From assembly GCF_025642745.1 (NCBI RefSeq), contig NZ_JANZKP010000014.1, positions 1-64,000 of the forward strand: DNA of 64,000 nucleotides, given 5' to 3'. Position numbers and translations under genes: made by a program. This stretch comes from Cellulomonas sp. RIT-PI-Y (GTDB lineage: Bacteria; Actinomycetota; Actinomycetes; Actinomycetales; Cellulomonadaceae). This document shows, piece after piece, positions 1-14,043 of the stretch. The notes below the pieces were generated by a model. It made no database searches, was not told the DNA's origin, and saw only the letters and a list, made by a program, of their open reading frames with translations. Each line of letters opens with the position of its first letter. Within the stretch, counting starts at the first letter, position 1.

Positions 1-1560
1 CGTGCCCGCGCCGCCCTGGTCGCCCTGCCCGCCGTCGCCGGTCTGCTGGCCCTGACCGCCTGCGGCCAGAGCGGCACCATCGGTTCCACCTCCTCCGGCG
101 GCGGCGACGTCTTCACCGCCGTGATGCTCACCGGCTACACCACCCCGCCGGACCCGGACGTGAACTACGACGGACCGGGCCTGAACATCATCGAGAACAC
201 CTACGAGGGCCTGGTCGCCTACCAGGACGGGGTGGAGAGCCCGGAGATCGTGCCGGAGCTGGCCGAGGAGTGGACGGTCTCCGACGACGGCCTGACCTAC
301 ACCTTCACCCTGCGCGACGGGGTGACCTTCCACGACGGCACCGCCTTCACCTCCGCGGCGGTGCAGCGCTCCTTCGAGCGGCGCACGCAGGTCGACGCCG
401 GCCCGGCCTACATGGTCGGCGACGTGGTGAGCGTCGAGACCCCGGACGACCTCACCGCGGTGATCACCCTCAGCGCACCGAACCAGGCGTTCCTGGACTA
501 CCTGGCCTCGCCGTTCGGGGTGAAGATGATCAGCCCCACCGTGCTGGACGAGCAGGCCGGTGACGACCTCGCGCAGACCTACCTGACCACGCACGACGCG
601 GGCACCGGTCCCTACGAGCTCACCGCCGTCGAGACCGGTGAGCGCTACGAGCTGACCGCCTACGACGGCTACTGGGGCGACGCGCCTGAGCTGACCGACA
701 TCGAGCTGCAGGTCGCCGAGAACGCTTCCTCCGCGCAGCTGCAGCTGGAACGCGGGGAGATCGACGCGATCCTGGGCAACCTGAACAAGACCTCCTTCGA
801 GTCCTTCGCGGACAGCGAGGACGTCACCACCAGCACCTTCGCGAACTTCACCACCCAGATGATCTACGTGAACCCCGGGTCGAGCTGGCTGTCGACCGTG
901 GACGCCCGGGAGTCGCTGTTCGCCGGGATCGACAAGGAGTCGATCATCGAGGAGGCGATGGGCTCGCTGGAGGTCCCGACCGACCAGCTGTTCCCGCAGG
1001 GCATGGTGGACGCCGGGATCGACGACCAGGGCATCAGCTACGACGCCGACGCGTGGTCGAGCCTGGGCACCCCCGACTCCGGCACGGTCCGGATCGCGTA
1101 CGCGGGGTCCAGCGCGGACGGCAAGGCGGTGGCCGAGGAGCTCGGTTCCCGGCTGAGCTCGGCGGGCATCCCGGCCGAGGCGGTCGCCTACTCCGCCGGC
1201 ACGATCTACGGCATCGCGGACGAGGGCGCCGACGGGCCGGACCTGGCGGTGTTCTCGGTGTTCCCGGACGCCGGGCACCCGGACGCCTGGGCCTCGATCA
1301 TCTACACCCCGGCCGGCGGGCTGGACCTGTTCGGTGCCGAGGCCCCCGGCCTGACCGATCTGCTGGACACCGCCCGGTCCAGCGCGGACGTCTCGGCCTA
1401 CGCACCGGTCGCCCAGGCGGTCAACGCCACCCGGTACTGGTACTCCATCGGGTCGCTGAACACCACGCTGCTGACCACCCCGGACGTCACCGGCGCCACC
1501 GAGGCGCAGAACGTCCTGGAGTACAACGTGCTGCACTTCGCGGCGCTGGGCCGGGGCTGA
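1..1560 (+). CDS. ABC transporter substrate-binding lipoprotein, peptide/nickel type (5' end missing)
   Basis: Extracellular solute-binding protein of the SBP_bac_5 (oligopeptide/nickel) family. The frame is open from base 1, so the start codon lies outside the window. The first codons give a hydrophobic signal sequence ending in the lipobox L-T-A-C, with the lipid-modified cysteine at bases 61-63; the protein should sit on the outer face of the membrane. The body has the typical family opening (a solvent-exposed start, then a stretch ending in YTFTLRDGVTFHDG). It lies 4 bp before a fused ATPase and two permeases, so it is the receptor of that importer. Substrate is not readable from sequence; the downstream amidohydrolases suggest a guanidino or ureido compound. 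Confidence 0.93.
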   Translation, partial: RARAALVALPAVAGLLALTACGQSGTIGSTSSGGGDVFTAVMLTGYTTPPDPDVNYDGPGLNIIENTYEGLVAYQDGVESPEIVPELAEEWTVSDDGLTYTFTLRDGVTFHDGTAFTSAAVQRSFERRTQVDAGPAYMVGDVVSVETPDDLTAVITLSAPNQAFLDYLASPFGVKMISPTVLDEQAGDDLAQTYLTTHDAGTGPYELTAVETGERYELTAYDGYWGDAPELTDIELQVAENASSAQLQLERGEIDAILGNLNKTSFESFADSEDVTTSTFANFTTQMIYVNPGSSWLSTVDARESLFAGIDKESIIEEAMGSLEVPTDQLFPQGMVDAGIDDQGISYDADAWSSLGTPDSGTVRIAYAGSSADGKAVAEELGSRLSSAGIPAEAVAYSAGTIYGIADEGADGPDLAVFSVFPDAGHPDAWASIIYTPAGGLDLFGAEAPGLTDLLDTARSSADVSAYAPVAQAVNATRYWYSIGSLNTTLLTTPDVTGATEAQNVLEYNVLHFAALGRG

Positions 1561-1564
1561 CGCG

Positions 1565-3265
1565 ATGACCCACGTCCTGCAGGTCTCCGGCCTCGACGTC
1601 CGGCTCAGCCGGGACGGGGAGAGCGTGCACGCCGTCCGCGGTGTCGACCTGTCCGTGGCACCGGGCGAGGTGCTCGGTCTGGTCGGCGGATCGGGCTCGG
1701 GCAAGAGCATCCTCGGCCTGGCGGTGATGGGTCTGCTGCCCGCGACCGCCCGACCGGTGGTCTCCGGCTCGATCGACCTGGCCGGCACCGACATGGTCCA
1801 CGCGCCGGACCCGGTGCGCCGGGCCACCCGCCGTGCGCACGTCGGCGCGGTGTTCCAGGATCCGATGACCTCCCTGGACCCGACCATGACCGTCGGCCGG
1901 CAGCTGGCCGAGGTCACCCGGGACCGGGCGCAGGCGCTGTCCCTGCTGCAGGACGTGGGCATCCCGCACGCCGCCGACCGGTTGAAGGCGTACCCGCACC
2001 AGCTCTCCGGCGGCCTGCGGCAGCGCGTGATGATCGCGCTCGCGGTGGCCCGCCGGCCGTCCCTGATCCTCGCCGACGAGCCGACCACCGCCCTCGACGT
2101 CACGGTGCAGGCGCAGATCCTCGACCTGCTGCTGACCCTTCGGGAGGAGATCGGCTGCTCGATCGTGTTCGTCACCCACGACCTCGGCGTGGCCGCCCAG
2201 GTCTGCGACCGCATCGCGGTGATGCAGACCGGCCGGATCGTGGAGTCCGCCGGGGTGGACCAGGTGTTCGGCGACCCGCAGCACCGCTACACGAAGAACC
2301 TGCTGCGGTCCCGGATCGACCTGTCCACCCCGCGGGACCGACCGCTGGCCGCCATGCCGGTGACCACGCCCCCGTCGGCCGGTGGCGCGGCCCTGGGCGA
2401 CGACGACGTGGCGGTCGGCGCGGACGGGGTGCTGGACCTGGCCCCGGGCGCACCGACCCCCGCGCTGCCCGAGGTCTGGCCGCCCGCGCCGATCCGGCCC
2501 ACCGCGGCGGTCACGGTCACCGGCGTGCACCGGGAGTTCCGGTCCGGGCCGCCGTGGAAGCGCCGGGTGCTGCCCGCGCTGCGCGGCGTCGACCTGGAGG
2601 TCAAGGCCGGTGAGGCGGTGGCCCTGGTCGGCGAGAGCGGCTGCGGCAAATCCACCCTGCTGCGGGTGGTGGCCGGACTGGAGACGGTGACCTCCGGGTC
2701 GGTCGTCCTCGCCGAGGGCGCCCGGCCGCAGATGGTCTTCCAGGACGCCGGCGCCTCGCTCACCCCCTGGCTGCGGGTCGGCACCATGCTGGACGAGCGG
2801 CTGCGGTCGCACGTCACCGGTATGTCCCGGGACCAGCGGCGGGCCCGGGTGCTGGACGCGCTGCGCACGGTGGGCCTGCCCGAGGACACCGCCCGGGCGC
2901 GCGGCGACCAGCTCTCCGGCGGGCAGCGTCAGCGGGTGGCACTGGCCCGCGCGGTGATCGTGCCGCCGACCGTGCTGCTCTGCGACGAGCCGACCAGCGC
3001 CCTGGACGTCTCCCTGGCCGCCACGGTGCTGAACCTGATCGGCCGGCTGCGCCGCGAGCTGGGCATGTCGGTGCTGTTCGTCACGCACGACCTGGCCGCC
3101 GCCCGGATCGTCGCCGACCGGATCGCGGTGATGCGCGAGGGCCGGATCGTCGAGGCCGGGCCGACCGACCGGGTCTGCGCCGCGCCGGAGCACGAGTACA
3201 CGCGCACCCTGCTGGCCGCGATCCCCGGCCCGCAGCACCGTCGTCCGATCGGAGCCGCCCGATGA
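1565..3265 (+). CDS. Dipeptide/oligopeptide-type ABC transporter, two fused ATP-binding domains (DppD-DppF-like)
   Basis: 566 aa protein with two complete ABC ATPase domains in one chain. Domain 1 has Walker A GGSGSGKS (residues 41-48), signature LSGGLRQR and Walker B LILADEP. Domain 2 has Walker A GESGCGKS (about residue 356) and signature LSGGQRQR (about 450). A proline/alanine-rich linker of roughly 50 residues joins them. In most peptide importers these are two genes (dppD, dppF); fused forms are known in actinobacteria and in GsiA. It powers uptake by the neighbouring permeases. ATG start 4 bp after the receptor gene stop; its own stop overlaps the next start (ATGA). Confidence 0.95.
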   Translation: MTHVLQVSGLDVRLSRDGESVHAVRGVDLSVAPGEVLGLVGGSGSGKSILGLAVMGLLPATARPVVSGSIDLAGTDMVHAPDPVRRATRRAHVGAVFQDPMTSLDPTMTVGRQLAEVTRDRAQALSLLQDVGIPHAADRLKAYPHQLSGGLRQRVMIALAVARRPSLILADEPTTALDVTVQAQILDLLLTLREEIGCSIVFVTHDLGVAAQVCDRIAVMQTGRIVESAGVDQVFGDPQHRYTKNLLRSRIDLSTPRDRPLAAMPVTTPPSAGGAALGDDDVAVGADGVLDLAPGAPTPALPEVWPPAPIRPTAAVTVTGVHREFRSGPPWKRRVLPALRGVDLEVKAGEAVALVGESGCGKSTLLRVVAGLETVTSGSVVLAEGARPQMVFQDAGASLTPWLRVGTMLDERLRSHVTGMSRDQRRARVLDALRTVGLPEDTARARGDQLSGGQRQRVALARAVIVPPTVLLCDEPTSALDVSLAATVLNLIGRLRRELGMSVLFVTHDLAAARIVADRIAVMREGRIVEAGPTDRVCAAPEHEYTRTLLAAIPGPQHRRPIGAAR

Positions 3266-4131
3266 CCACGCTGACCGCCGTCGCCCCCGGCCGGGCCGCC
3301 CGACGCTGGGCCCGGGTCACCGCCGTCCGGCACCGCGCGGTCGGGGTGGACCTGGTCGCGATCGGGGTGCTGGCGCTGATCGTCGTGGTGGCGCTGGCCG
3401 CCCCGGTGCTCGCCCCGCACTCGCCGATCCTGCGCAGCGGGGACGCCTTCCTCCCTCCCGGCAGCCCCGGCCACCTGTTCGGCACCGACGCCCTCGGCTA
3501 CGACATCCTGTCCCGGCTGCTGTTCGGCATGCGGTCCAGCCTCGCCGCCGCGGCGCTCGTGATCGTCTCCGGGGTGCTGATCGGCGGACTGATCGGCCTG
3601 CTGGCCGGGGCACTGCCGGGCTGGGTGGACTCGCTCCTGATGCGGACCACCGACCTGTTCCTGGCCCTGCCCGGCCTGGTGATCGCGATGGCGGTCGCCG
3701 CCGCGCTCGGTGCCAGCTTCACCAGCGCACTGATCGGCGTGGCGGTGGTCTGGTGGCCGCTGTATGCCCGGCTGGTGCGCGGCGAGGTCCGTGCCTGGGC
3801 CGCGCGTCCGCACCTGGAGGCGGCCCGCCTGGCCGGGACGCCGTGGGGGATGCGGGTCACCCGGCACCTGCTGCCGGGAGTGCGCTCCACCCTCGTGGTC
3901 GCCGCCTCCCTGGACGTCGGCGGCCTGGTGGTCGCCCTGTCCGGGCTGTCCTTCATCGGCCTGTCCTCCCCCGCGCCCGCCCCGGAGCTGGGCGCGATGG
4001 CCGCGCAGGGCATGGCCTACCTGCTGAAGGCCTGGTGGGTGCCGATCTTCCCGGGCCTGGCGGTGCTGGTCATCGCCCTGGCCGCCAACCTCGCCGGTGA
4101 CGGCGTCCGCGACCTGATGCGCGGCCGCTGA
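3262..4131 (+). CDS. ABC transporter permease, DppC-like
   Basis: 289 aa inner-membrane permease of the BPD_transp_1 family. The N-terminal helix (about residues 35-55) is followed by the DppC-type motif FGTDALGYDILSRLLFG and then several hydrophobic helices; the EAA-type loop that contacts the ATPase is at ARPHLEAARLAGTPWG. The ATG overlaps the stop of the ATPase gene by 4 bp, so translation is probably coupled. It pairs with the next gene to form the channel of the importer. Confidence 0.95.
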   Translation: MTTLTAVAPGRAARRWARVTAVRHRAVGVDLVAIGVLALIVVVALAAPVLAPHSPILRSGDAFLPPGSPGHLFGTDALGYDILSRLLFGMRSSLAAAALVIVSGVLIGGLIGLLAGALPGWVDSLLMRTTDLFLALPGLVIAMAVAAALGASFTSALIGVAVVWWPLYARLVRGEVRAWAARPHLEAARLAGTPWGMRVTRHLLPGVRSTLVVAASLDVGGLVVALSGLSFIGLSSPAPAPELGAMAAQGMAYLLKAWWVPIFPGLAVLVIALAANLAGDGVRDLMRGR

Positions 4132-4162
4132 TGACCACCCAATCGCAGAAGGAGATGCCGAC

Positions 4163-5161
4163 ATGGTGATGTTCCTGATCAAGCGGGTGGCGGCCACCCT
4201 GGGCGTCCTGCTGGCGCTCACCATGGCGCTGTTCGGCCTGCAGGAGGTCTCCGGGGTAGACCCGGCCAAGGCCTACGTGGGGACCAATGCCTCCGCCGAC
4301 GCGGTGGCCGCCGCCCGCGAGCGCCTCGGTCTGGACGAACCGCTGGTCTCCCGGTATCTGACCTACCTGGACGGGCTGCTGCACGGCGACCTGCAGAACT
4401 CGCTGCGCAGCCGGACCCCGGTGTCGGAGAACCTGGCGCAGGTGCTGCCCGCGAGCCTGGAGCTCGCGGCCTGGGTGCTGGGGATCGCTCTGGTGCTCGG
4501 GGTGGCGTTCGCCGCGTTGACCACGCTGGCCTGGAAGGGCGCAGGGATCGTCCGGGTGGTCCTGCTGTCCGGGGCCGCCGCGCCGACCTTCCTGCTCGGC
4601 ATGGTGGGTCTGCTGGTGTTCTACGCCCAGCTGGGCTGGTTGCCGTCCGGCGGCCGCACCGGGTTGAGGGACGCCCCTGCCGGGCCTACCGGGTTCCTGG
4701 TGCTGGACGGGCTGCTCGCGGGGCGGTTCGACGTCATGGGCGACGCGGTGGCGCATCTGGCGCTGCCCGCCCTGTGCGCGGCGATCTCCCCCGCGGTCGC
4801 CATCGGCCGGGTGCTGGTGGACGGGCTGAAGGCCAACATGTCCGCCGACCACGCCCGCACCGCCCGGTCCGCCGGGATGAGCGAGCGCCAGATCCTGGTC
4901 CGGCACGCGGTGCGCAACTCCCTGGGCCCCACCCTGTCGATGGTCGGGATCCAGGCCGGGATGCTGCTGGCCGGCCTGGTCGTGGTCGAGAAGATCTTCG
5001 ACTGGCCCGGGGTCGGCTCCTACCTCGACAAGTCCGTGGCCGCCTCCGACTTCCCCGCGATCGCGGGGGTCGCCCTGGTGCTCGGCATCGTCTACGTCCT
5101 GCTCAACACCCTCGTCGACTGCCTGCAGGCCGCCGCCGACCGTCGCATCGCGCTCGCCTGA
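4163..5161 (+). CDS. ABC transporter permease, DppB-like
   Basis: 332 aa permease of the DppB/OppB type: a first transmembrane helix at the extreme N-terminus, a periplasmic stretch with GLDEPLVSRYL and then a core of about five helices. The EAA loop reads DHARTARSAGMSERQIL. A good ribosome-binding site (AAGGAG) lies 8 bases before the ATG, and the gene follows the DppC-like gene after 31 bp. The order receptor, ATPase, DppC, DppB is unusual (DppB normally precedes DppC) but all parts of one importer are present. Confidence 0.95.
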   Translation: MVMFLIKRVAATLGVLLALTMALFGLQEVSGVDPAKAYVGTNASADAVAAARERLGLDEPLVSRYLTYLDGLLHGDLQNSLRSRTPVSENLAQVLPASLELAAWVLGIALVLGVAFAALTTLAWKGAGIVRVVLLSGAAAPTFLLGMVGLLVFYAQLGWLPSGGRTGLRDAPAGPTGFLVLDGLLAGRFDVMGDAVAHLALPALCAAISPAVAIGRVLVDGLKANMSADHARTARSAGMSERQILVRHAVRNSLGPTLSMVGIQAGMLLAGLVVVEKIFDWPGVGSYLDKSVAASDFPAIAGVALVLGIVYVLLNTLVDCLQAAADRRIALA

Positions 5162-5184
5162 GCGCGATGAGGAAAGGAACAGCC

Positions 5185-5823
5185 ATGAACGTCACCGGCA
5201 ACGCCGTCCTGATCGTCGTCGACATCCAGGGCGGTGACGTGGAGCGGGCCGAGTCCCGCACCGAGATCCCGTACATGCCCGGGCGCACCGAGCGCGCGCC
5301 GCGGGTCCGGTCCCTGATCGCCAGGAGCCGGGAGCAGGGCATCCCGGTGGTCTGGATCCAGGAGGTGCACAAGCCCTCGCTGATCGACATCGGCCGGGAG
5401 CTGGACGGCGCCGAGGGCCCGCACTGCGTGGAGGGCTGGCCGGAGACCGAGCTGGCGCAGGGCCTGGACCCGCGACCGGACGAGTTCCTGATCCGCAAGC
5501 GCCGCTACTCCGCGTTCTTCGGCACCGAGCTGGAGATCGTGCTCAAGGCCTACCGGGCGGAGACCGTGATCCTGATCGGCGGGCTGACCGATGTCTGCAT
5601 CCACTACACCGCGGTCGACGCGCACCAGCACGACTACCGGGTGCGGGTGGTGACGGATGCGGTGGGCGGCTCCAGCCAGGAGGCGCACGACGCGGCGCTC
5701 CGGGCGATCGGCTACCTGCAGACCGACGCCCTGGTCACCGCGGACCAGGTGCAGGACTGGCTGGCCACCGCGCCGGAGAACCCCGAGGTGGCCCGGGCGA
5801 CCGCGTCGGCGGTGGCCCTGTGA
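5185..5823 (+). CDS. Isochorismatase-fold cysteine hydrolase (candidate biuret/guanylurea-type amidohydrolase)
   Basis: 212 aa member of the isochorismatase-like cysteine hydrolase superfamily. The catalytic triad is visible as D13 (VVDIQ), K105 (LIRKRRYS) and C138 (GLTDVCIHYTA), with the conserved GG before the cysteine segment. Start ATG is backed by GGAAAGGA 8 bases upstream; the larger open frame around it starts inside the permease gene and is not real. Known relatives split C-N bonds in biuret, ureidoacrylate, guanylurea, nicotinamide or N-carbamoyl compounds. Lying directly before the two DUF1989 genes and allophanate hydrolase, it most likely makes the deiminase or allophanate substrate from an imported molecule. 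The exact substrate is inference. Confidence 0.85.
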   Translation: MNVTGNAVLIVVDIQGGDVERAESRTEIPYMPGRTERAPRVRSLIARSREQGIPVVWIQEVHKPSLIDIGRELDGAEGPHCVEGWPETELAQGLDPRPDEFLIRKRRYSAFFGTELEIVLKAYRAETVILIGGLTDVCIHYTAVDAHQHDYRVRVVTDAVGGSSQEAHDAALRAIGYLQTDALVTADQVQDWLATAPENPEVARATASAVAL

Positions 5824-6641
5824 GCACCGCCGACCCGCTGGGCGCCCGGGACCACGCCCGCGCCCAGGGCGGCACCGTCGTGGAGACCATGCCCACCGTC
5901 CCGGCAGCGGACGCGGCCGACTGGCCCGCCGACGCTGGGGAGCGCCTGCACGCGGAGACGGTCGCGGGCGGCAACTACACCAGCCTGGCCTTCACAGCGG
6001 GCACCGTGCTGGAGCTGACCGACCTGCTCGGCGACGCCTGCGCGCACCTGGTGCTGACCAACGCCGCCCAGGTGGACGAGCGGCTGAACGTCGCGGACAC
6101 GGTCAAGATCCAGTGGCAGGCCTACCTGGGTGCCGGATCCCTGCTGCTCTCCGACCGCGGCCGCGTGCTCGCCACCGTGCTCACCGACACCTCGGGTCGG
6201 CACGACACCTTCTGCGGCACCTCGACCCGGGCCGCGAACGAGCGCCGGTACGGCGACGGTTCGCCGCAGGGCGGCACCCCCGCCGGCCGGGAGCTGCTGA
6301 CCCTGGCGGCACTGAAGCAGGGGCTGTCCCCCCGGGACGTCCCGCCGAGCGTCAGCCTGTTCCAGGGGGTGCGGATCGCCGACGACGGCAGCACCGAGTT
6401 CACCGGTTCCGCGGGTCCGGGCGCCACAGTCCGGCTGCGGCTGGAGCTGCCCTGCCTGGTGCTGCTGGCCAACGTCCCGCATCCGGTCGACCCCCGCCCG
6501 GAGTACGTGTCCACCCCGCTGCGCCTGCGGGCCTGGCGCGGTGAGCCGACCGCGCTGTCCGACCCGCTGGCCACCGCCACCCCGGAGGCGGCCCGGGCCT
6601 ACGCCAACACCACCGACTACGCCCGAGCGAAGGGGCTGTGA
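5820..6641 (+). CDS. cgdA: DUF1989 protein, urea carboxylase-associated protein 1 / carboxyguanidine deiminase subunit A-like
   Basis: 273 aa protein of the DUF1989 family (urea amidolyase-associated protein 1). Members work as a heteromer with a second DUF1989 protein, shown in guanidine users to hydrolyse carboxyguanidine to allophanate plus ammonia. Family marks seen here are TSGRHDTFCGTS and the late segment NVPHPVDPRP. Compared with its partner it lacks the H-x-C and N-C-P cysteine motifs, so it is probably not the subunit that holds the metal. GTG start overlaps the upstream stop by 4 bp. The name rests on family and gene order; the older name urea carboxylase-associated is equally valid. 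Confidence 0.82.
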   Translation: MSTADPLGARDHARAQGGTVVETMPTVPAADAADWPADAGERLHAETVAGGNYTSLAFTAGTVLELTDLLGDACAHLVLTNAAQVDERLNVADTVKIQWQAYLGAGSLLLSDRGRVLATVLTDTSGRHDTFCGTSTRAANERRYGDGSPQGGTPAGRELLTLAALKQGLSPRDVPPSVSLFQGVRIADDGSTEFTGSAGPGATVRLRLELPCLVLLANVPHPVDPRPEYVSTPLRLRAWRGEPTALSDPLATATPEAARAYANTTDYARAKGL

Positions 6642-7252
6642 CCATGACCATCGTTCTCGACCAGGTCGTCCCCCGCCGCGCCCCGTGGTCCGCCGTGGTC
6701 CCCGCCGGGCACGAGCTGACCATCGTGGACCTGGAGGGCAATCAGGCGGTCGACTGCCTGCTGTACGACGCGCACGACACCGGCGTCCGGTACTCGGCCT
6801 CGGCCACCATCGCCGCGCAGCGCAACGTCTACCTGACCACCGGGTCGGTGCTGCGCGCCTCGGACGACCAGCCGCTGATGACCCTGGTCCGGGACGACGT
6901 GGGCCGGCACGACACCATCGGCGGGGCGTGCTCCAAGGAGTCGAACTCGCTGCGCTACGGCCACCACACCGTGCACCAGCACGCCTGCGTGGAGAACTTC
7001 CTGGCCGAGGGCGCCCGCTGGGGGCTGGACAAACGGGACCTGGTCAGCAACATCAACTGGTACATGAATGTGCCGGTGGAGGCGGACGGGGCGCTCGGCA
7101 TCGTGGACGGCCTGTCCTCCCCCGGGCTGACTCTCACGCTCCGGGCCGAGCGGGACGTGCTGGTGCTGGTGTCCAACTGCCCGCAGATCAACAACCCGTG
7201 CAACGGCTTCGACCCCACCCCGGTCCGGATGATCGTCGAGGACCCGCGGTGA
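6638..7252 (+). CDS. cgdB: DUF1989 protein, urea carboxylase-associated protein 2 / carboxyguanidine deiminase subunit B-like
   Basis: 204 aa DUF1989 protein (UAAP2). It keeps the likely metal-binding and active-site features of the family: DVGRHDTIGGACSKESN, VHQHACVENF and SNCPQINNPCNGFDPTP, supplying several cysteines and histidines. With the preceding protein it should form carboxyguanidine deiminase, feeding allophanate to the next enzyme. GTG at 6638 overlaps the previous stop (GTGA); an ATG at 6644 is an alternative start that changes only two residues. No biotin-dependent guanidine or urea carboxylase lies next to it, which is the usual partner of this pair. Confidence 0.85.
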   Translation: MTMTIVLDQVVPRRAPWSAVVPAGHELTIVDLEGNQAVDCLLYDAHDTGVRYSASATIAAQRNVYLTTGSVLRASDDQPLMTLVRDDVGRHDTIGGACSKESNSLRYGHHTVHQHACVENFLAEGARWGLDKRDLVSNINWYMNVPVEADGALGIVDGLSSPGLTLTLRAERDVLVLVSNCPQINNPCNGFDPTPVRMIVEDPR

Positions 7253-8907
7253 ACGTCGTCGCGGCCTACGACCGGATCGCGGCGGTCGACCGCCCGGAGG
7301 TCTGGATCCACCTCCGCCCCCAGGCCGACGTGGAGGCCGAGGCCGCGGCGCAGCAGGCCCGGGCGGCGGCGGGCGAGGACCTGCCGCTGCTCGGCCGCCT
7401 GGTGGCGGTCAAGGACAACATCGATGTCGCCGGGCTGCCCACCACGGCGGGTTGCCCCGGCGTGGCCTGGACCCCGGAGGCGGACGCCACCGCGGTCGCA
7501 CGGCTGCGGGCCGCCGGGGCCGTGGTGCTCGGCAAGACCAACCTGGACCAGTTCGCCACCGGCCTGGTCGGCACCCGCAGCCCCTACGGCGCGGTGCGGT
7601 CGGCCGCCGACCCGGAGCGGATCTCCGGCGGGTCCTCCTCCGGTTCCGCGGTGGCGGTCGCGCTGGGGATCGTGGACCTGGCGCTCGGCACCGACACCGC
7701 CGGCTCCGGCCGGGTGCCCGCCGCGCTGCAAGGCATCGTCGGGATCAAGCCCACCCCCGGTCTGGTGCCGACCACCGGCGTGCTGCCCGCCTGCCGGTCG
7801 CTGGACTGCGTGAGCGTCTTCGCCCGGGACCTGCCGCTGGCCGCGCTCGCAGTCCGGCTGATGTCCGGGCCGGACGGGGTGGACGCCCTGGCCCGGCCGG
7901 TGCCCGCCCACGCCCCGCTCGCCGGTCCCGAGCACCCGGTGCTGGCCGTCCCCCGCGCCGAGGACCTGTCGGCCGTCGACCCGCAGTGGCGCGCCGCGTT
8001 CGACGGGCTCCGGTCCACGATCACCGGCATCGAGCTGCGCGAGATCGACCTCGCCCCGTTCCTGGCCGCCGCCCGCCTGCTCTACGACGGCGCGTTCGTC
8101 GCCGAGCGCTGGGCGGCGGTCGGTCCCCTGGTCGAGTCCGCACCCGACGGCCTGGACCCGACGGTCGGAGCGATCATCGGGGCCGCCCGGGACCTGCCCG
8201 CGCACCGCTACGCCGCCGACCTGATCACTCTGGCGGAGCTGCGCGCCGCCGCGGAACGCGCCCTGGCCGAGGTCGGCGCGGACGGTCTGCTGCTGCCCAC
8301 CACCACGCACCACCCGACCCTGGCCGAGGTGGCCGCGGACCCGGTGGGCGTGAACTCCCGGCTCGGCACCTTCACCAACTTCTGCAATCTGTTCGGCTAC
8401 ACCGCGGTGGCGGTCCCGACCCCCGGGATCGGCGTCAGCGTCCTGACCCCCGGCTTCACCGACGCCGGCGCGCTCGACCTCGCCGCCCGCATCCTGGGGA
8501 CGCCGCTACCGCTCTCCGACGACGACCGGGCCGTCGACCTGCTGGTGGTCGGTGCCCACCTGTCCGGCCTCCCGCTGCACGGCCGTCTGCGCCGCCACGG
8601 TGCCCGGCCGCTCGGCGAGGTCCGCACCGCCCCCGGCTACCGGCTGGTGGCGCTCGGCGATCCGCTCGACCGTCCCGGACTGGTCCGCGCCCCCGGCGAG
8701 GACCGCACCGTGGTCGGCGAGCTCTGGCGCCTGCCCCGCCCCGCACTGGCTGACCTGCTCGCCGAGAGCCTGCCGCCGCTCGGACTCGGCTGGGTCGACC
8801 TGTCCGACGGCCGCACCGTCCTGGGCTATCTGGCCGAACATGCCGCGGTCCGGGAGCTGGACGCCCTGCCCGGCGGGTCCTGGCGGGACCGTCCGGTGAC
8901 GGTGTGA
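7249..8907 (+). CDS. atzF: Allophanate hydrolase
   Basis: 552 aa amidase-signature enzyme that splits allophanate into CO2 and two ammonia. The Ser-cisSer-Lys triad is K55 (VAVKDNID), S129 (ISGGSSSGS) and S153 (DTAGSGRVPAA). The C-terminal ~110 residues (VVGAHLSGLPLHG to the end) match the extra domain that marks AtzF/DUR1-type allophanate hydrolases rather than generic amidases; length is slightly below the usual 570-620. The true start is GTG 7249 overlapping the cgdB stop; an upstream in-frame extension runs through cgdB and is spurious. It is a free-standing enzyme, not fused to urea carboxylase. Confidence 0.93.
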   Translation: MNVVAAYDRIAAVDRPEVWIHLRPQADVEAEAAAQQARAAAGEDLPLLGRLVAVKDNIDVAGLPTTAGCPGVAWTPEADATAVARLRAAGAVVLGKTNLDQFATGLVGTRSPYGAVRSAADPERISGGSSSGSAVAVALGIVDLALGTDTAGSGRVPAALQGIVGIKPTPGLVPTTGVLPACRSLDCVSVFARDLPLAALAVRLMSGPDGVDALARPVPAHAPLAGPEHPVLAVPRAEDLSAVDPQWRAAFDGLRSTITGIELREIDLAPFLAAARLLYDGAFVAERWAAVGPLVESAPDGLDPTVGAIIGAARDLPAHRYAADLITLAELRAAAERALAEVGADGLLLPTTTHHPTLAEVAADPVGVNSRLGTFTNFCNLFGYTAVAVPTPGIGVSVLTPGFTDAGALDLAARILGTPLPLSDDDRAVDLLVVGAHLSGLPLHGRLRRHGARPLGEVRTAPGYRLVALGDPLDRPGLVRAPGEDRTVVGELWRLPRPALADLLAESLPPLGLGWVDLSDGRTVLGYLAEHAAVRELDALPGGSWRDRPVTV

Positions 8908-10133
8908 GCGTCGAGGCTCCCCCCGCGGTGGCCCGTGCCCGGCTCTGGCCCCTGGCCACCGGCACCTTCGCGATCGGCTTCGGCTCCTACGTGATGGCCG
9001 GGCTGGTGCCCAGCGTCTCCGCCGACCTGGACGTGCCCGTCACCCGGGTCGGCACCCTGGTCAGCGTGTACGGCTTCACCTACGCGGTCGCCACCCCGCT
9101 GCTGACCCTGGTCGTGCGCCGCCTGCCCCGTCGGCTCCTGATGGGCCTGGCGCTCGCCCTGTTCGCCCTCACCGCCGCGGCCACCGCCCTGGCCACCACG
9201 TACACCGCGGTCGCCGTGCTGCGCGGGCTGTCCGCGGTCGCCGCCGGTGGGTTCACCCCCACCGCCACCGTGCTCGCCGCCCGGCTCGCCCCGCCCGGCG
9301 GTCGTGGCCGGGCGGTCGCCACCGTGTTCGGCGGTCTGACCACCGCCACGGTGCTCGGGTCCCCGGCGGGCAACCTGCTCGGACCGGTGCTCGGCTACCG
9401 CGGGGTGTACGCCCTGGTCGCGGTGCTGGCGCTGGTGGCCCTGGCCTCGGTGCTGTGGCTGGTCCGTACCCCGGCACCCGTCGACCGGGACCTCGTCGGC
9501 CCCGTGCCGGTCGGCCCGGCCCCGGTCGACCCGTCCCTCACCGAGCGCGCCCCCGGCAGCGGCCGCGCGCTGCCGCTGCTGATCGCGGCGACCCTGCTGG
9601 TCTCGATGCTGGAGACCGCCTCCGCGCTGATGGTGCAGACCTATGCGTCACCGATGCTGACCGAGCTGGCCGGGATCACCGGGGCCGTCCTGTCCGTCGT
9701 CCTGCTCGCCTATGGTCTGGCCGGTGTGGCGGGCAACGTGGTCGGCGGACGGCTCGCCGACCGGTATGGGGCCGCCCGGAGCATCTCGCTCGCACTGGGG
9801 ACCTCCGCCCTGGCCCTGTTCCTGCTCGCACCGTCCACCGGGTCGGTCGTCACGGCGGTGGCGGTGTTCGCGCTCTGGGGGTTCGCGGCGTGGGCGATGA
9901 ACTCACCGCTGCAGAACGTGCTGCTGGCGTTGTCCGGGCGGCACGGGCAGGTGGTCGTCGCGCTGAACTCCTCGGTGATCTCCCTGGGCACCGGGGTGGG
10001 GGCGCTCGCCGGTGCCCAGGTGATCGCCGGACCGGGGTACGGGTGGCTCGGCGTCGCGGCCGGCGGGGTGATGGTGCTCGCGGTGGGGCTGGTGGCGGTG
10101 CTGGGGCGGCGTCCGGCGGTGCGAGCGGTCTGA
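8904..10133 (+). CDS. MFS transporter (DHA1/AraJ-like)
   Basis: 409 aa major facilitator protein with about twelve hydrophobic segments in two halves, split by a polar, proline-rich loop near residues 190-220. The first segment (TFAIGFGSYVMAGLVPSVSADL) and the loop motif VSVYGFTYAVATPLL are typical of the AraJ/DHA1 drug-efflux or sugar-efflux branch. GTG start overlaps the atzF stop by 4 bp, so it belongs to the same transcript. It could export a toxic intermediate or serve as a second substrate carrier; the sequence does not decide. Confidence 0.9.
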   Translation: MSVEAPPAVARARLWPLATGTFAIGFGSYVMAGLVPSVSADLDVPVTRVGTLVSVYGFTYAVATPLLTLVVRRLPRRLLMGLALALFALTAAATALATTYTAVAVLRGLSAVAAGGFTPTATVLAARLAPPGGRGRAVATVFGGLTTATVLGSPAGNLLGPVLGYRGVYALVAVLALVALASVLWLVRTPAPVDRDLVGPVPVGPAPVDPSLTERAPGSGRALPLLIAATLLVSMLETASALMVQTYASPMLTELAGITGAVLSVVLLAYGLAGVAGNVVGGRLADRYGAARSISLALGTSALALFLLAPSTGSVVTAVAVFALWGFAAWAMNSPLQNVLLALSGRHGQVVVALNSSVISLGTGVGALAGAQVIAGPGYGWLGVAAGGVMVLAVGLVAVLGRRPAVRAV

Positions 10134-10150
10134 GGAACCGATCCCGGCCC

Positions 10151-10367
10151 CCCAGCTCAGCTCCGCGGCTCCCAGACCGGGCTCCCGCCGCATTCGCAGC
10201 GCGGTCCGGTACAGCTCGTAGGTCGACCCGGGCACGTCCCGCTGGGGGCACCGTGTGGCGGTCCCAGTCGTCGCCCTGGGGCAGCCCGGTGTGCCCGGTC
10301 GGCGAGAACCCGGGCCCGGGGGCACACCGGGCTGCCACGGGATCGGCACCCGGCAACCGTCACGACC
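10151..10367 (-). pseudogene. GH13 alpha-glucosidase C-terminal fragment, frameshifted
   Basis: On the minus strand, reading from 10367 down, three pieces in two frames join into the C-terminal part of an oligo-1,6-/alpha-glucosidase: GRDGCRVPIPW (10367 downward), then after a frame change FSPTGHTGLPQGDDWDRHTV, then back in the first frame RDVPGSTYELYRTALRMRRE followed by GAAELSW. These match the conserved order in GH13 enzymes (RDGCRVPxPW, LPQPxDW, STLxLYRxALxLRRE). The N-terminal catalytic barrel and the true C-terminus are missing, and at least two frameshifts are needed. A dead fragment left by deletion; it sits tail to tail with the MFS gene. Confidence 0.75.
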
Positions 10368-10389
10368 GGCCGCGCGGCCACCGCTGCGG

Positions 10390-10845
10390 GCGGACATCGG
10401 GGACGTGCCGGTGGCGGACCGTCGGCTCGCGGGCTGGGCCGAGGCGCTGCGCTCCGCCGGGATCGAGCCCGAGGACACCCGGGTCGAGCACGCCTCGTTC
10501 ACCCGGGACGGCCGCCAGCAGGCGATGGCCACCCTGATCGAGCGCGCCGGTTGCACGGCGGTGTTCGCCTCCGGCGAGGTGCAGGCGATCGGCGCGCTCC
10601 CCCATGCCCGCAGCGCCGGACGGAGGGGGCCGGAGGACCTGAGCGTGGTGAGCTTCGACGGGACCGAGCTGGCCCGGCACGCCGTACCACGGCTGACCGC
10701 GGTGGTGCAGCCGCTGCGCCGGATCGCCGAGCTGGCCGCCGCCGAGGTGGTCCGCCGGATCGCCGACCCCGCCGCCGAACCCCGGTCGATCGAGGTGCCG
10801 ACCTCGCTGGAGCCCGGCGACTCCACGGCGCCGCCGCGCGGGTGA
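10390..10845 (+). pseudogene. LacI-family regulator remnant (ligand-binding domain only)
   Basis: About 150 codons matching the C-terminal half of LacI/GalR regulators: RLAGWAEALRSAGIEP, CTAVFASGEVQAIGAL, LSVVSFDGTELARHAVPRLTAVVQP, and the closing dimerisation segment. The N-terminal helix-turn-helix, hinge and first subdomain are absent: upstream sequence in this frame has no family similarity and on the other strand encodes the alpha-glucosidase remnant. It therefore cannot bind DNA as a LacI protein. Remnant of a regulator that was probably divergent from the alpha-glucosidase gene. Ends 3 bp before the stop of the Lrp gene on the other strand. Confidence 0.75.
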
Positions 10846-10848
10846 GGC

Positions 10849-11439
10849 TCAGCCCTGGTCGAGCAGCCGGGTCAGCAGCTCACCGGCGGGCACCTCACCG
10901 AGGCTGAGGAAGGTCTCGATCCGCTGCAGACCGTCGATCTGCCACAGCGACTCCAGCAGCAGCGCCTGCAGGTGGGCGTGGTCGCGCAGCCGGAACCGGC
11001 CGATCAGGTCGTAAGTGCCGGTCACCGCGACCAGCTCCTCCAGCTCCGGCACCGCCCGCAGGTCGGTCAGGATCTGGGCCAGATCGGCGCCCGGGGCGAT
11101 GCTGATCGGGATGTAGGCCAGCACCGGGAAGCCGAGCGCCGCCCAGTCGACGGCGACCGTGTAGCCCTTGATCACCCCGGCGCGTTCCAGCCGGGCGATG
11201 CGTTCGCCCACCGCCGGTCCGGACATGTTGATCTCCCGGGCCAGCTGCCGCTGGGAGGCACGCGGGTCGGCGGCCAACCGGCGGATCAGCTCCCGGTCGA
11301 TGTCGTCGAGCGGCACGGCCGGACCCTGCCGCTCGATGAACCCGGCCAGGCCGGACATCGAGTTGCGCCGCGGGGTGTCGGCGGGCGTGCTGCGCCGGGT
11401 CCGGCGCCGGGTGCCCTCCCCCTCGCCCTCGGCGGTCAC
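10849..11439 (-). CDS. Lrp/AsnC family transcriptional regulator
   Basis: Regulator with an N-terminal winged helix-turn-helix (LDDIDRELIRRLAADPRASQRQLAREINMSGPAVGERIARLERAGVI) and a C-terminal ligand-sensing RAM domain (VTGTYDLIGRFRLRDHAHLQALL). GTG 11439 overlaps the stop of the monooxygenase-like gene by 4 bp, the habit of this genome, giving 196 aa; the ATG at 11358 (169 aa) is the alternative and would drop a charged 27-residue leader. Likely the local regulator of the divergent monooxygenase/SDR operons and of the palindromes between them. Family members usually sense amino acids or related small molecules. Confidence 0.9.
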   Translation of the reverse strand: MTAEGEGEGTRRRTRRSTPADTPRRNSMSGLAGFIERQGPAVPLDDIDRELIRRLAADPRASQRQLAREINMSGPAVGERIARLERAGVIKGYTVAVDWAALGFPVLAYIPISIAPGADLAQILTDLRAVPELEELVAVTGTYDLIGRFRLRDHAHLQALLLESLWQIDGLQRIETFLSLGEVPAGELLTRLLDQG

Positions 11440-12194
11440 CGACCCCACCGCGCGGGCAGATCGGCCTCGGCCATGATCCGCGGGAAGCCGGGCATGGACA
11501 CCTCCGGTTGCAGGTAACGGGCGACGTACAGCCCGAAGAATGTCGCAGCCTCGGTCCCGGCCGCGACCCGACCCGCCGGTGCGGGCGGCCGCAGCAGCAG
11601 ATGGGTGACCCCGGCATCGGACCAGGCGGTCACCAGGGCGCGATCCCGGGCCAGATCGCCGGTCAGCTCCGCCACCCCGGGCTGGACCTGCCGGTCGGGC
11701 CGCGCCGCGGCCGGGTCGTCGATCACCTCCGGCAGGTCGACGCCCGGGACGGCACGGGTCAGCCACACCGCCAGCTCGACCTGCGACGGCACCGGCGTGA
11801 TCGCGATCCGCTCAGGCATCCCCTCGCCCATCACACCGCTGGGCACCTGCCAGCGCGCGCCGTGGTGCGCCACCGGGCGACCGGACCAGCAGGCACGCAG
11901 CAGCGCCAGGTCCTCCGCGGCGGCCTGGTCGGACAGGGCACCGGGATCGACCAGCACCACGACCCGCCCCGCGCTGAGGTGGTCCAGCACCGCGACCTCC
12001 TCGGCCAGGGTGACCGGGTTCTCGGTGCCGAGCAGGACCCGGACCAGCACCCGGCAGTCCCGGGTCAGGGTCGCGACCTCGGCGGCGGTGACACTGCCGG
12101 TGTCCGATCCGGTGTCCAGCAGCACGCCGAAGGCACCCGCCTCCGCGGCCGGTCGCACGTCCGCGACCTCGGTGAGCCAGGCTCCGATCCTCAT
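11436..12194 (-). CDS. Short luciferase-like monooxygenase (LLM) family protein
   Basis: 252 aa protein with LLM-type elements (VTLAEEVAVLDHLSAGRVVVLVDPG, LLRACWSGRPVAHHGARWQVP), but about 70-100 residues shorter than a standard LLM barrel and with a poorly conserved N-terminus. ATG start overlaps the stop of the full-length LLM gene. It may be a partner subunit of that enzyme, as in two-component luciferases, or a diverged paralogue that has lost flavin chemistry. Substrate unknown. Confidence 0.75.
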   Translation of the reverse strand: MRIGAWLTEVADVRPAAEAGAFGVLLDTGSDTGSVTAAEVATLTRDCRVLVRVLLGTENPVTLAEEVAVLDHLSAGRVVVLVDPGALSDQAAAEDLALLRACWSGRPVAHHGARWQVPSGVMGEGMPERIAITPVPSQVELAVWLTRAVPGVDLPEVIDDPAAARPDRQVQPGVAELTGDLARDRALVTAWSDAGVTHLLLRPPAPAGRVAAGTEAATFFGLYVARYLQPEVSMPGFPRIMAEADLPARWGR

Positions 12195-13168
12195 GCGACG
12201 GCCTCCACGTTCTCCAGGGCGGGCAGCACCTCGTCGGCCATCCGGCCGAGCATCCGTCGCACGGCGGAGGCGGGTGCGCCCTCGATGATCACCCGCAGCA
12301 CCACGTCGTCGACGCCAGCCGCGCTCGCCTCGTGCAGGGCGTCCACGATCTGCGCCGCGGGACCCACCACCGAGGTCGCGACCGCCTGGCCGACCGCCTT
12401 GTCCAGGTCGGCCCGGAAGTCCATCGCCTCGGTCGAATCCTGCTGCGCCACCGCCCAGCCCAGCCCGGCGTACAGCACGTAGCTCGCCCGCTGCCAGTCC
12501 AGGACCGCCGCGGCCTCGTGCCGGTCGTCGGTGAGCCAGAAGTTCCGCAGCGCACTGACCCGGGGCCGCACGCCACCCGGCCGTCCGGCCTCCTCCCAGC
12601 CGGCACGGTGTGCCGCGGCGAGCTCGGTGACCAGCGACAGCGGGTTCGCGCCGGAGAGCATGATCCCCTGCCCGCGCGCACCGGCCCGCGCCACCCCGCG
12701 CGGCGTGGCCGAGCCGTTCCAGATCGTGGCCCCGGCCGGGACCGCGGTGCGCTGCAGCTCGGTCAGTCCCTCCCGGTGCAGGGCGACCCGGTCCTGGCGC
12801 CGGACCCCCTTGCCGTCGAACTCCACGTCCCGGTAGCCGAGTCCGACCCCGACGTCCAGCCGACCGCCGGAGCGGCCCGCGATGTCGGTGGCCAGCCGCG
12901 CGACCCGCCCGGGGTCCTGGAGCGGCAGCAGCATCATGCCGGTGCCGACCCGCAGCCGCGTGGTCGCGGCCAGCAGTCCGGAGGCCACCGGCAGCAGGGC
13001 CGGGCAGTACCCGTCGTAGAAGAAGTGGTGCTCCGACAGCCACATGCCGTCGTAGCCCCAGCCCTCCAGCAGCCGGGCGTCCTCGACCAGCTCGCGGTAC
13101 GGGGTGCTGGGATGCCGGGGTGTGCTCGCGGTGGCCTGCAGGCAGTACAGCCCTACGCCGAACTTCAC
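12191..13168 (-). CDS. LLM class flavin-dependent oxidoreductase
   Basis: 325 aa luciferase-like monooxygenase, a TIM barrel using FMN or F420. Diagnostic pieces are EDARLLEGWGYDGMWLSEHHF near the start, RLRVGTGMMLLPLQDPGRVARLATDI and GGRLDVGVGLGYRDVEFDGKG. GTG start with an AGGAGG site 7 bases upstream. First gene of a three-gene minus-strand operon (LLM, short LLM, Lrp regulator), divergent from two SDR genes and a third LLM. Function within the pathway unknown. Confidence 0.9.
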   Translation of the reverse strand: MKFGVGLYCLQATASTPRHPSTPYRELVEDARLLEGWGYDGMWLSEHHFFYDGYCPALLPVASGLLAATTRLRVGTGMMLLPLQDPGRVARLATDIAGRSGGRLDVGVGLGYRDVEFDGKGVRRQDRVALHREGLTELQRTAVPAGATIWNGSATPRGVARAGARGQGIMLSGANPLSLVTELAAAHRAGWEEAGRPGGVRPRVSALRNFWLTDDRHEAAAVLDWQRASYVLYAGLGWAVAQQDSTEAMDFRADLDKAVGQAVATSVVGPAAQIVDALHEASAAGVDDVVLRVIIEGAPASAVRRMLGRMADEVLPALENVEAVA

Positions 13169-13293
13169 GATCCGCCTCCTGGTCTGTCGACTGTCGATCC
13201 GCTCGGCACCTTAGGCCGGATTTGTTTCACTTGTGAGTCACAAGACGACACCGGCTTTACATCTGCGTAGCTTTGGCGTGCTCACATAGTCAC
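13169..13293. promoter_or_regulatory. Divergent promoter region with two perfect palindromes
   Basis: The spacer between the LLM operon (minus) and the SDR operon (plus) holds CTTGTGAGTCACAAG at 13230-13244 (7-bp arms around one base) and GTCACGTGAC at 13289-13298. The second overlaps the likely GTG start of the SDR gene. Both are built from the same GTGAC/GTCAC element, so one dimeric regulator could bind both; the Lrp/AsnC protein at the end of the minus operon is the nearest candidate. Confidence 0.55.
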
Positions 13294-14043
13294 GTGACAA
13301 CCGACACTGAGGCATCCCTCGTCAGCGGCGGCGCCAGCGGACTGGGCCGCGCCATCTGTCTGCGCCTGGCCGCCCGGGGCGATCTGGTCACCGTGGCCGA
13401 CCGGGACGGCACCGGGGTCGCGGCCACCGTCGACCTGATCACCGCCGCGGGCGGTCGCGCCCGGCCGGTGACGCTGGACGTCACCGACGCCGACGCCGTC
13501 CGGCACGCGGTGGCCGAGGCGGACGCGGAGCTCCCGCTGACCACGGCAGTGGCCTGTGCCGGGATCGCCCTGCCCACCTCGGTGCTCGACCCGGACCTGT
13601 CCGGACTCGACCGCACGCTCGCGGTGAACGTCCGCGGCAGCTACGCGGTGGTCCAGGCGGCGGCGACCGTGATGGTGCCGCGCCGATCGGGCAGCATCGT
13701 CACGATCGGCTCGACCTCCTCCTTCACCGCCTCGTCCACCCCGATGCTGGCGTACGACATGTCCAAGGCCGCGGTCCGGATGCTCACCCAGGCGGCGGCC
13801 CGCGAGCTCGGTCCGCACGGGATCCGGGTCAACGGGGTCGCGCCCGGCACGATGGACACCCCCCTGATGCGCGGACTGGGCGCCGACGACGCCGGGCTGT
13901 CCACCCTGGCCGCGGCCCGGATCCCGCTCGGCCGGCTGGGGCTGCCCGCGGAGGTCGCCGAGGCGGTCGCCTTCGCCTCCTCCGCCGAGGCGTCGTACCT
14001 CACCGGTCAGATGCTCGTGGTGGACGGGGGGTGGCTGGCATGA
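13294..14043 (+). CDS. SDR family oxidoreductase
   Basis: Classical short-chain dehydrogenase/reductase of 249 aa. The cofactor motif reads SGGASGLGRAI in place of the usual TGGxxGxG; the catalytic residues are in GSTSSFTASSTPMLAYDMSKAA (S, Y-x3-K), followed by GIRVNGVAPGTMDTPL. GTG 13294 is preferred; a TTG at 13273 would add seven residues with no site before it. No ribosome-binding site precedes GTG 13294, so the message may be leaderless. Overlaps the next SDR gene by 4 bp. Substrate unknown. Confidence 0.9.
   Translation: MTTDTEASLVSGGASGLGRAICLRLAARGDLVTVADRDGTGVAATVDLITAAGGRARPVTLDVTDADAVRHAVAEADAELPLTTAVACAGIALPTSVLDPDLSGLDRTLAVNVRGSYAVVQAAATVMVPRRSGSIVTIGSTSSFTASSTPMLAYDMSKAAVRMLTQAAARELGPHGIRVNGVAPGTMDTPLMRGLGADDAGLSTLAAARIPLGRLGLPAEVAEAVAFASSAEASYLTGQMLVVDGGWLA

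Follow-up and report, generated by a model that had tools for sequence, protein, structure and literature searches.

A CgdAB-AtzF operon of Cellulomonas that appears to lack its carboxylase and carries an uncharacterised isochorismatase-like hydrolase in its place

How might a guanidine pathway persist when its carboxylase is missing? The question is raised by a 64,000-nucleotide stretch of DNA from Cellulomonas sp. RIT-PI-Y (the window: bases 1-64000 of contig C6, from a genome of 3.52 Mb in 94 contigs that is 99.98% complete), in which genes for CgdA, CgdB (together CgdAB) and the allophanate hydrolase AtzF follow an isochorismatase-like cysteine hydrolase, here called HYD. A carboxylase-free CgdAB-AtzF guanidine pathway, in which HYD would hydrolyse a carbamoylguanidine-type compound to carboxyguanidine, is a reading that we hold to be about evenly poised between right and wrong. 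Comparison of genomes supports the idea that the carboxylase is bypassed, and the reaction and substrate of HYD and the cargo of the adjoining importer are predicted from it. The gene set proposed by an earlier sequence-only reading was recovered in full, as nine genes on the + strand that fill 1-10133 and all score against the expected families:

1..1560, + strand: SBP_bac_5 substrate-binding lipoprotein (SBP) of an ATP-binding cassette (ABC) importer, NikA/DppA-like (PF00496, 195.6 bits); 5' end cut by the contig start
1565..3265, + strand: double ABC ATPase of the Opp/Dpp type (ATP; two PF00005 stretches, oligo_HPY)
3262..4131, + strand: ABC permease C (PF00528)
4163..5161, + strand: ABC permease B (PF00528, PF19300)
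5185..5823, + strand: HYD, isochorismatase-like cysteine hydrolase, in the carboxylase's place (PF00857, 137 bits; D13-K105-C138)
5820..6641, + strand: CgdA (UAAP1, DUF1989; TIGR03425, 274 bits, cut-off 206)
6638..7252, + strand: CgdB (UAAP2, DUF1989; TIGR03424, 322 bits, cut-off 285)
7249..8907, + strand: AtzF, allophanate hydrolase with C-terminal domain (TIGR02713, 579.5 bits, cut-off 511; AH_C, 102 bits); start read as GTG 7249, the scan having begun at 7246
8904..10133, + strand: major facilitator superfamily (MFS) transporter, Cmx/CmrA-like (PF07690, 136 bits; Cmx/CmrA model 165 bits, cut-off 400)

Neighbouring genes overlap by 4 bases at every junction from HYD through the MFS gene, and these genes therefore likely form a single operon. 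The peptide-type importer and MFS carrier said to frame the set were both present by family matches.

The region upstream was examined for a carboxylase, and a TetR gene and an amidohydrolase gene were found there instead. Contig C6 starts partway through the signal peptide encoded by SBP. In Cellulomonas relatives a divergent amidohydrolase and a TetR gene stand upstream of SBP, and contig C88 of the window's genome begins with both (amidohydrolase 89-1306, TetR 1303-2010). The assembled order is TetR-amidohydrolase / SBP-ATP-C-B-HYD-CgdA-CgdB-AtzF-MFS, with a short unread stretch between contigs C88 and C6. PF02626 (CT_A_B, the carboxyltransferase A/B of urea and guanidine carboxylases) had no match anywhere in this genome, and a carboxylase hidden beyond the contig start was thereby ruled out.

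The distribution of HYD and of the carboxylase was followed in three genome sets: (a) 81 genomes of the genus, (b) 394 genomes of the class, drawn without regard to HYD, and (c) 50 of the 80 genomes found via HYD. All HYD candidates were scored in set a, and up to seven first-look candidates per genome in set b, where HYD is possibly undercounted as a result. CgdA exceeded its cut-off in 32 of the 81 genomes of set a, and HYD was present in 12, all of them with CgdA. Every genome with CgdA and no HYD (20/20) carried, about 3 kb from CgdA, an open frame of more than 1150 codons with a CT_A_B match, and a carboxylase lay beside CgdA in one of the 12 with HYD (G505, where a Demequina-like cassette holds a fragment of it at the edge of a contig). 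The suggestion that HYD bypasses the carboxylase thus held well within the genus, where HYD and an adjacent carboxylase were mutually exclusive in 31 of 32 genomes with CgdA, and less well outside it, where many genomes keep both. G516, a single contig that is 99% complete and carries HYD and CgdAB, had no CT_A_B match; in G493 and G501, also of one contig each, the only CT_A_B proteins were PxpB-PxpC-like fusions without a biotin carboxylase domain. The CT_A_B matches L144 and L145 were rejected as carboxylases for being fusions of this same kind, and score below the PxpB and PxpC equivalog cut-offs. Those of L114-L120, in HYD-bearing Cellulomonas, all align to practically one and the same part of the carboxylase query and were not counted as carboxylases.

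Set b contained 41 genomes with CgdA, at least eight of which had HYD (55-100% identity). A CT_A_B match lay near CgdA in 38 of the 41, and the three without it (G000, G113 and G192) all had HYD. For independent genomes the chance of this would be 0.005, but these genomes are not independent (G113 and G192 share a genus). CgdA was over its cut-off in 40 of the 50 genomes of set c. Twelve of these 40 had no CT_A_B match nearby (seven of the Cellulomonas group, Micromonospora G414, G422 and G423, Streptomyces shenzhenensis G416 and Jiangella G430; the S. shenzhenensis and Micromonospora genomes were chosen for having HYD), and one more, G435, had a guanidine-type carboxylase on another contig. 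Conversely, none of the 53 genomes of sets a and b with CgdA and no HYD was without a nearby carboxylase match. HYD is not always paired with loss of the carboxylase, yet the loss was seen only alongside HYD.

A CgdAB tree, built after 24 of 91 rows had been dropped as near duplicates, places three lineages without a carboxylase (the HYD clade of Cellulomonas, Jiangella and S. shenzhenensis) on separate branches among lineages that bear one. Micromonospora, a fourth carboxylase-less lineage, was filtered out of this tree. At least four lineages with CgdAB are thus without the carboxylase, and all have HYD. The tree labels Demequina and L046 "without carboxylase" because their loci end early, and other searches showed the carboxylase. 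Microbacterium rhizomatis (G432, L185:7628-15995) has a second CgdAB-AtzF copy with no carboxylase next to it, and after this copy comes an SBP-ATP-C-B importer of the type seen in the window.

Conservation suggests that CgdAB is probably still in use in the carboxylase-free operons. Invariant columns were defined on 48 carboxylase-linked sequences, the divergent L099, L102, L103, L105 and L163 being excluded. All 29 such columns of CgdA were kept in 14 sequences from loci without an adjacent carboxylase, and the 63 columns of CgdB showed four exceptions, two each in L133 and L152, with 63/63 kept in the window copy. In comparisons with six relatives (five in the case of AtzF), pairwise dN/dS lay at 0.08-0.27 for all nine genes. 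In G516, the closest relative of one contig, AtzF is missing from the operon and encoded elsewhere in the genome, and the two CgdB changes of L133 (7146-10509) belong to this operon. AtzF of L034 (12225-13700) ends in a low-complexity Ala-rich tail in place of the C-terminal allophanate hydrolase domain of the window copy; among the matches listed for other HYD-bearing Cellulomonas, several AtzF matches end near model position 411-415 and may have the same tail.

The identity of the missing enzyme was read from an Asp at model position 701, which is described as separating guanidine from urea carboxylase (PMC11410670). The position was matched to query position 700 through the model's alignment range, and matches spanning fewer than 560 query positions were excluded. 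The specificity Asp was present in 30 of 35 CgdAB-linked carboxylase rows, including all six Cellulomonas rows aligned; the remaining five, from four Solirubrobacterales genomes, had Met. The CT_A_B proteins of the carboxylase-less S. shenzhenensis, Micromonospora and Jiangella had Q or E and no Asp (7/7). By this residue, the missing enzyme is a guanidine-type carboxylase. The Met-bearing carboxylases lie at loci L099 (17286-19178), L102, L104 and L105, the L099 gene comprising the carboxyltransferase part only, and an AtzF-linked, CgdAB-free Cellulomonas carboxylase (L175) has Asn.

HYD itself shows both marks of the isochorismatase-like superfamily, the Asp-Lys-Cys triad and the fold, the latter in an AlphaFold model with a mean predicted local distance difference test score (pLDDT) of 88; fold comparison singled out no one relative. 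All 45 aligned family sequences have the triad previously assigned, D13-K105-C138, and E60, D68, E72, E77 and E83 are invariant in them as well. An affinity with biuret and guanylurea hydrolases was not upheld by phylogeny, which placed HYD outside their branch and in a clade of its own, and on these alignments HYD is a separate, uncharacterised isochorismatase-like subfamily. Seven named records, five Cellulomonas, one Cellulosimicrobium and one Micrococcales metagenome-assembled genome, hold hydrolases 88-93% identical to it. Relatives of 70-80% identity were also found inside amine-oxidation clusters (L045, L046, L050, L053, L055, L064 and L068), which contain varying sets of a glutamine-synthetase-like protein (gamma-glutamylation), Rieske oxygenase, copper amine oxidase, phosphotriesterase-like proteins and aldehyde dehydrogenase.

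Forty-eight distinct HYD loci (L192 is the contig of L108 again and was counted once) were scanned with Rfam at the gathering score, three of them holding weak homologues of 32-41%. A guanidine riboswitch was detected 10-188 nt upstream of HYD in six loci and in none of the other 42, and all guanidine riboswitches detected in the 0.96 Mb of DNA scanned precede HYD. Guanidine-I was found 42-43 nt before HYD in three Solirubrobacterales loci (L099, L102 and L105), at the head of operons ordered HYD-ATP-C-SBP-B-CgdAB-carboxylase-AtzF. Guanidine-III lies 10, 10 and 188 nt before the nearest in-frame HYD start in L108, L111 and L112, respectively, where the next genes are on the opposite strand, so that the riboswitch seems to act on HYD alone. 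In the same kind of scan, no guanidine riboswitch was detected at six carboxylase loci that have no HYD orthologue; control of the guanidine carboxylase pathway by guanidine riboswitches is frequent, not universal. TetR genes of one subfamily occur next to HYD-ABC loci and also next to many loci of CgdAB with a carboxylase, where they are 34-44% identical to the Cellulomonas TetR. The link of HYD to guanidine is strong. A 2010 ykkC-III paper names emrE and speB (PMC2864571), and no report joining a guanidine riboswitch to a cysteine hydrolase or isochorismatase was found in the literature searched, which took in few subscription papers and not the gene table of the 2010 paper, and is not proof of novelty.

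In the proposed pathway, the ABC importer would bring in a guanidine derivative, and HYD would cut the bond between the carbonyl carbon and the outer nitrogen, leaving the carbonyl on the guanidine part as carboxyguanidine. The simplest substrate would be guanylurea, from which ammonia and carboxyguanidine would form; with a substituted amidinourea, an amine would be released in place of ammonia. CgdAB would then convert carboxyguanidine to allophanate and ammonia, and AtzF allophanate to ammonia and CO2, the pathway being entered without ATP or biotin. TrtA is described as freeing ammonia and leaving a carboxylated remainder, carboxybiuret (PMC7948467), and by analogy a step of this type on guanylurea would give carboxyguanidine, the substrate of CgdAB. 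Because HYD would supply carboxyguanidine, CgdAB and AtzF could persist without the carboxylase; the presence of HYD in guanidine-controlled operons would follow from the same role, and a carboxylase kept beside HYD may serve to recover guanidine from decarboxylated carboxyguanidine. The wider proposal, that HYD founds an unrecognised guanidine-responsive family (under two riboswitch classes or TetR) which hydrolyses carbamoylguanidines to carboxyguanidine and makes the carboxylase dispensable, is offered tentatively, its chances being somewhat short of even.

Several observations weigh against the formation of carboxyguanidine by HYD. The carboxylase is kept near CgdA in five of the eight set b genomes with HYD and CgdA and in 27 of the 40 in set c, including eight Demequina and five Solirubrobacterales; ten of the 50 HYD-bearing genomes of set c have no CgdA over the cut-off, five of these with no CgdA match at all. 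The 11 carboxylase-less Cellulomonas form one clade, so their counts are not independent events. The reported product of guanylurea hydrolase is guanidine (PMC9800807), which suggests that carboxyguanidine may decarboxylate before meeting CgdAB. HYD is 28% identical to the protein taken as the guanylurea hydrolase of Pseudomonas mendocina MET and lies on a different branch of the superfamily, in a comparison that used the MET protein only. An Opp/Dpp-type importer together with a prolidase-like amidohydrolase suits a substrate larger than guanylurea. No guanidine riboswitch was detected in window positions 1-14000, in L132 or in the close relatives scanned, the gap between C88 and C6 being unread, and guanidine-I was assigned by Rfam match, the guanidine-binding subtype being presumed. 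The lone HYD genes behind guanidine-III are in three genomes without CgdA, where guanidine made by this route has no known outlet. The amine-oxidation clusters are poorly explained by a carboxyguanidine-forming role, and it is speculation that an amine freed from substituted amidinoureas could be what these clusters degrade.

The retained carboxylases (27/40) and the riboswitches before six HYD genes would also suit a HYD that releases free guanidine, with an acid, from an N-acylguanidine or other guanidine derivative, the guanidine being used where there is a carboxylase and exported where there is none. A parallel exists in the methylguanidine demethylation genes of a guanidine operon (PMC12508155). 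The HYD clade of Cellulomonas, Jiangella, S. shenzhenensis and Micromonospora have all kept CgdAB-AtzF, which would then have no substrate there, and we consider the explanation unlikely. The lone HYD genes directly behind guanidine-III could instead point to a metal-free guanidine hydrolase, in which Cys attacks guanidine to give urea and ammonia for detoxification or nitrogen supply and CgdAB-AtzF serve something else. Two of the genomes concerned (G024 with L108, G061 with L111) have no CT_A_B match at all, and the five invariant acidic residues could bind the guanidinium ion. Urea, however, would be no feed for CgdAB, which conserved residues and selection suggest still works in the carboxylase-free operons. 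Known members of the fold cleave amides, or a vinyl ether in the case of isochorismatases, and we know of no member that cleaves an amidine; a guanidine hydrolase is thus quite improbable.

HYD, importer and amidohydrolase might also process an unrelated peptide-like amide, with CgdAB-AtzF placed beside them by chance and fed by a carboxylase missed in the assemblies. A TetR-amidohydrolase-ABC-HYD module does occur without adjacent CgdAB in Agreia, S. shenzhenensis and a Streptomyces plasmid. No guanidine carboxylase was seen, however, in G516, G493 or G501, each a single contig, and neither the guanidine riboswitches before HYD nor a TetR subfamily shared by CgdAB-carboxylase and HYD loci fits a chance neighbour, so that this account has only a slim chance. 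The fold, and an AtzF in the operon, would finally agree with a biuret, triuret or ureidoacrylate hydrolase supplying allophanate to AtzF, and biuret-like compounds had been among the substrates first suggested. HYD scores 63.4 bits on the BiuH equivalog model (cut-off 370), on which the MET guanylurea hydrolase reaches 271, and 46 bits on that for RutB (cut-off 378); family scans found no rut genes among the nine of the operon. BiuH and TrtA share the fold and triad of HYD and have a second active-site lysine three residues past the catalytic one (K145 and K132, respectively; PMC7948467), where HYD has Y108, a Tyr invariant in the 45 sequences. Hydrolysis of biuret would yield allophanate directly and leave CgdAB without a role, and relatives of HYD stand behind guanidine riboswitches. 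This assignment was rejected on models, tree and active site and is very improbable, biuret being an unlikely substrate.

The gene set was also compared with known systems. As in the guanidine carboxylase pathway, CgdA, CgdB and AtzF of the window exceed curated cut-offs, lie in one operon and keep the CgdAB invariants; unlike it, the window set has HYD, an Opp/Dpp-type importer and an MFS carrier in place of a carboxylase, which was found neither in the operon nor in the genome, and a TetR gene nearby where no riboswitch was found. The guanylurea hydrolases of P. mendocina (GuuH of strain GU, BB_00025 of strain MET) are likewise isochorismatase-like cysteine hydrolases that work with a CgdAB-AtzF pathway, and the pMET-2 plasmid gene for the cysteine hydrolase that was taken to be BB_00025 is accompanied by an ABC importer as well; Pseudomonas, however, keeps its guanidine carboxylase (PMC9800807). 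In the methylguanidine operon of Vreelandella boliviensis (MgdH, MgdL), an extra enzyme also feeds a guanidine derivative into CgdAB-AtzF, under guanidine riboswitches as in the three Solirubrobacterales HYD operons, but MgdH and MgdL, an oxygenase and a lyase, yield guanidine, for which the carboxylase is still required (PMC12508155). On this comparison of genes, the window set is a variant of the guanidine pathway with an as yet uncharacterised enzyme family at its centre.

Guanidine riboswitches raised the question of where guanidine and its derivatives originate in nature and how bacteria use them. A hydrolase that stands behind two riboswitch classes, and elsewhere in the carboxylase's place, is a concrete enzyme to assay and would offer a cheaper entry to the pathway. 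It hints that carbamoylguanidines may serve as actinobacterial substrates, and CgdAB-AtzF without a carboxylase need not mean a broken pathway. Metformin and cyanoguanidine, a fertiliser additive, are both sources of guanylurea (PMC11410670).

Among the neighbouring genes, SBP has nickel and peptide binding proteins as its closest solved chains. Among solved structures, the amidohydrolase comes closest to putative amidohydrolases, prolidases and arginine carboxypeptidases, and it scores 276 bits on a Xaa-Pro dipeptidase model with a cut-off of 500. Past the TetR gene, contig C88 (L132:2620-4845) encodes a response regulator with an ANTAR domain, and a periplasmic binding protein of urea/amide-type kinship, perhaps another nitrogen locus. 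A second AtzF gene of the window's genome adjoins a GntR regulator on contig C57 (L172:9162-10857), no urea carboxylase having been found in this genome, and the equivalent gene in G448 has a gene for an SsuA-type binding protein after it.

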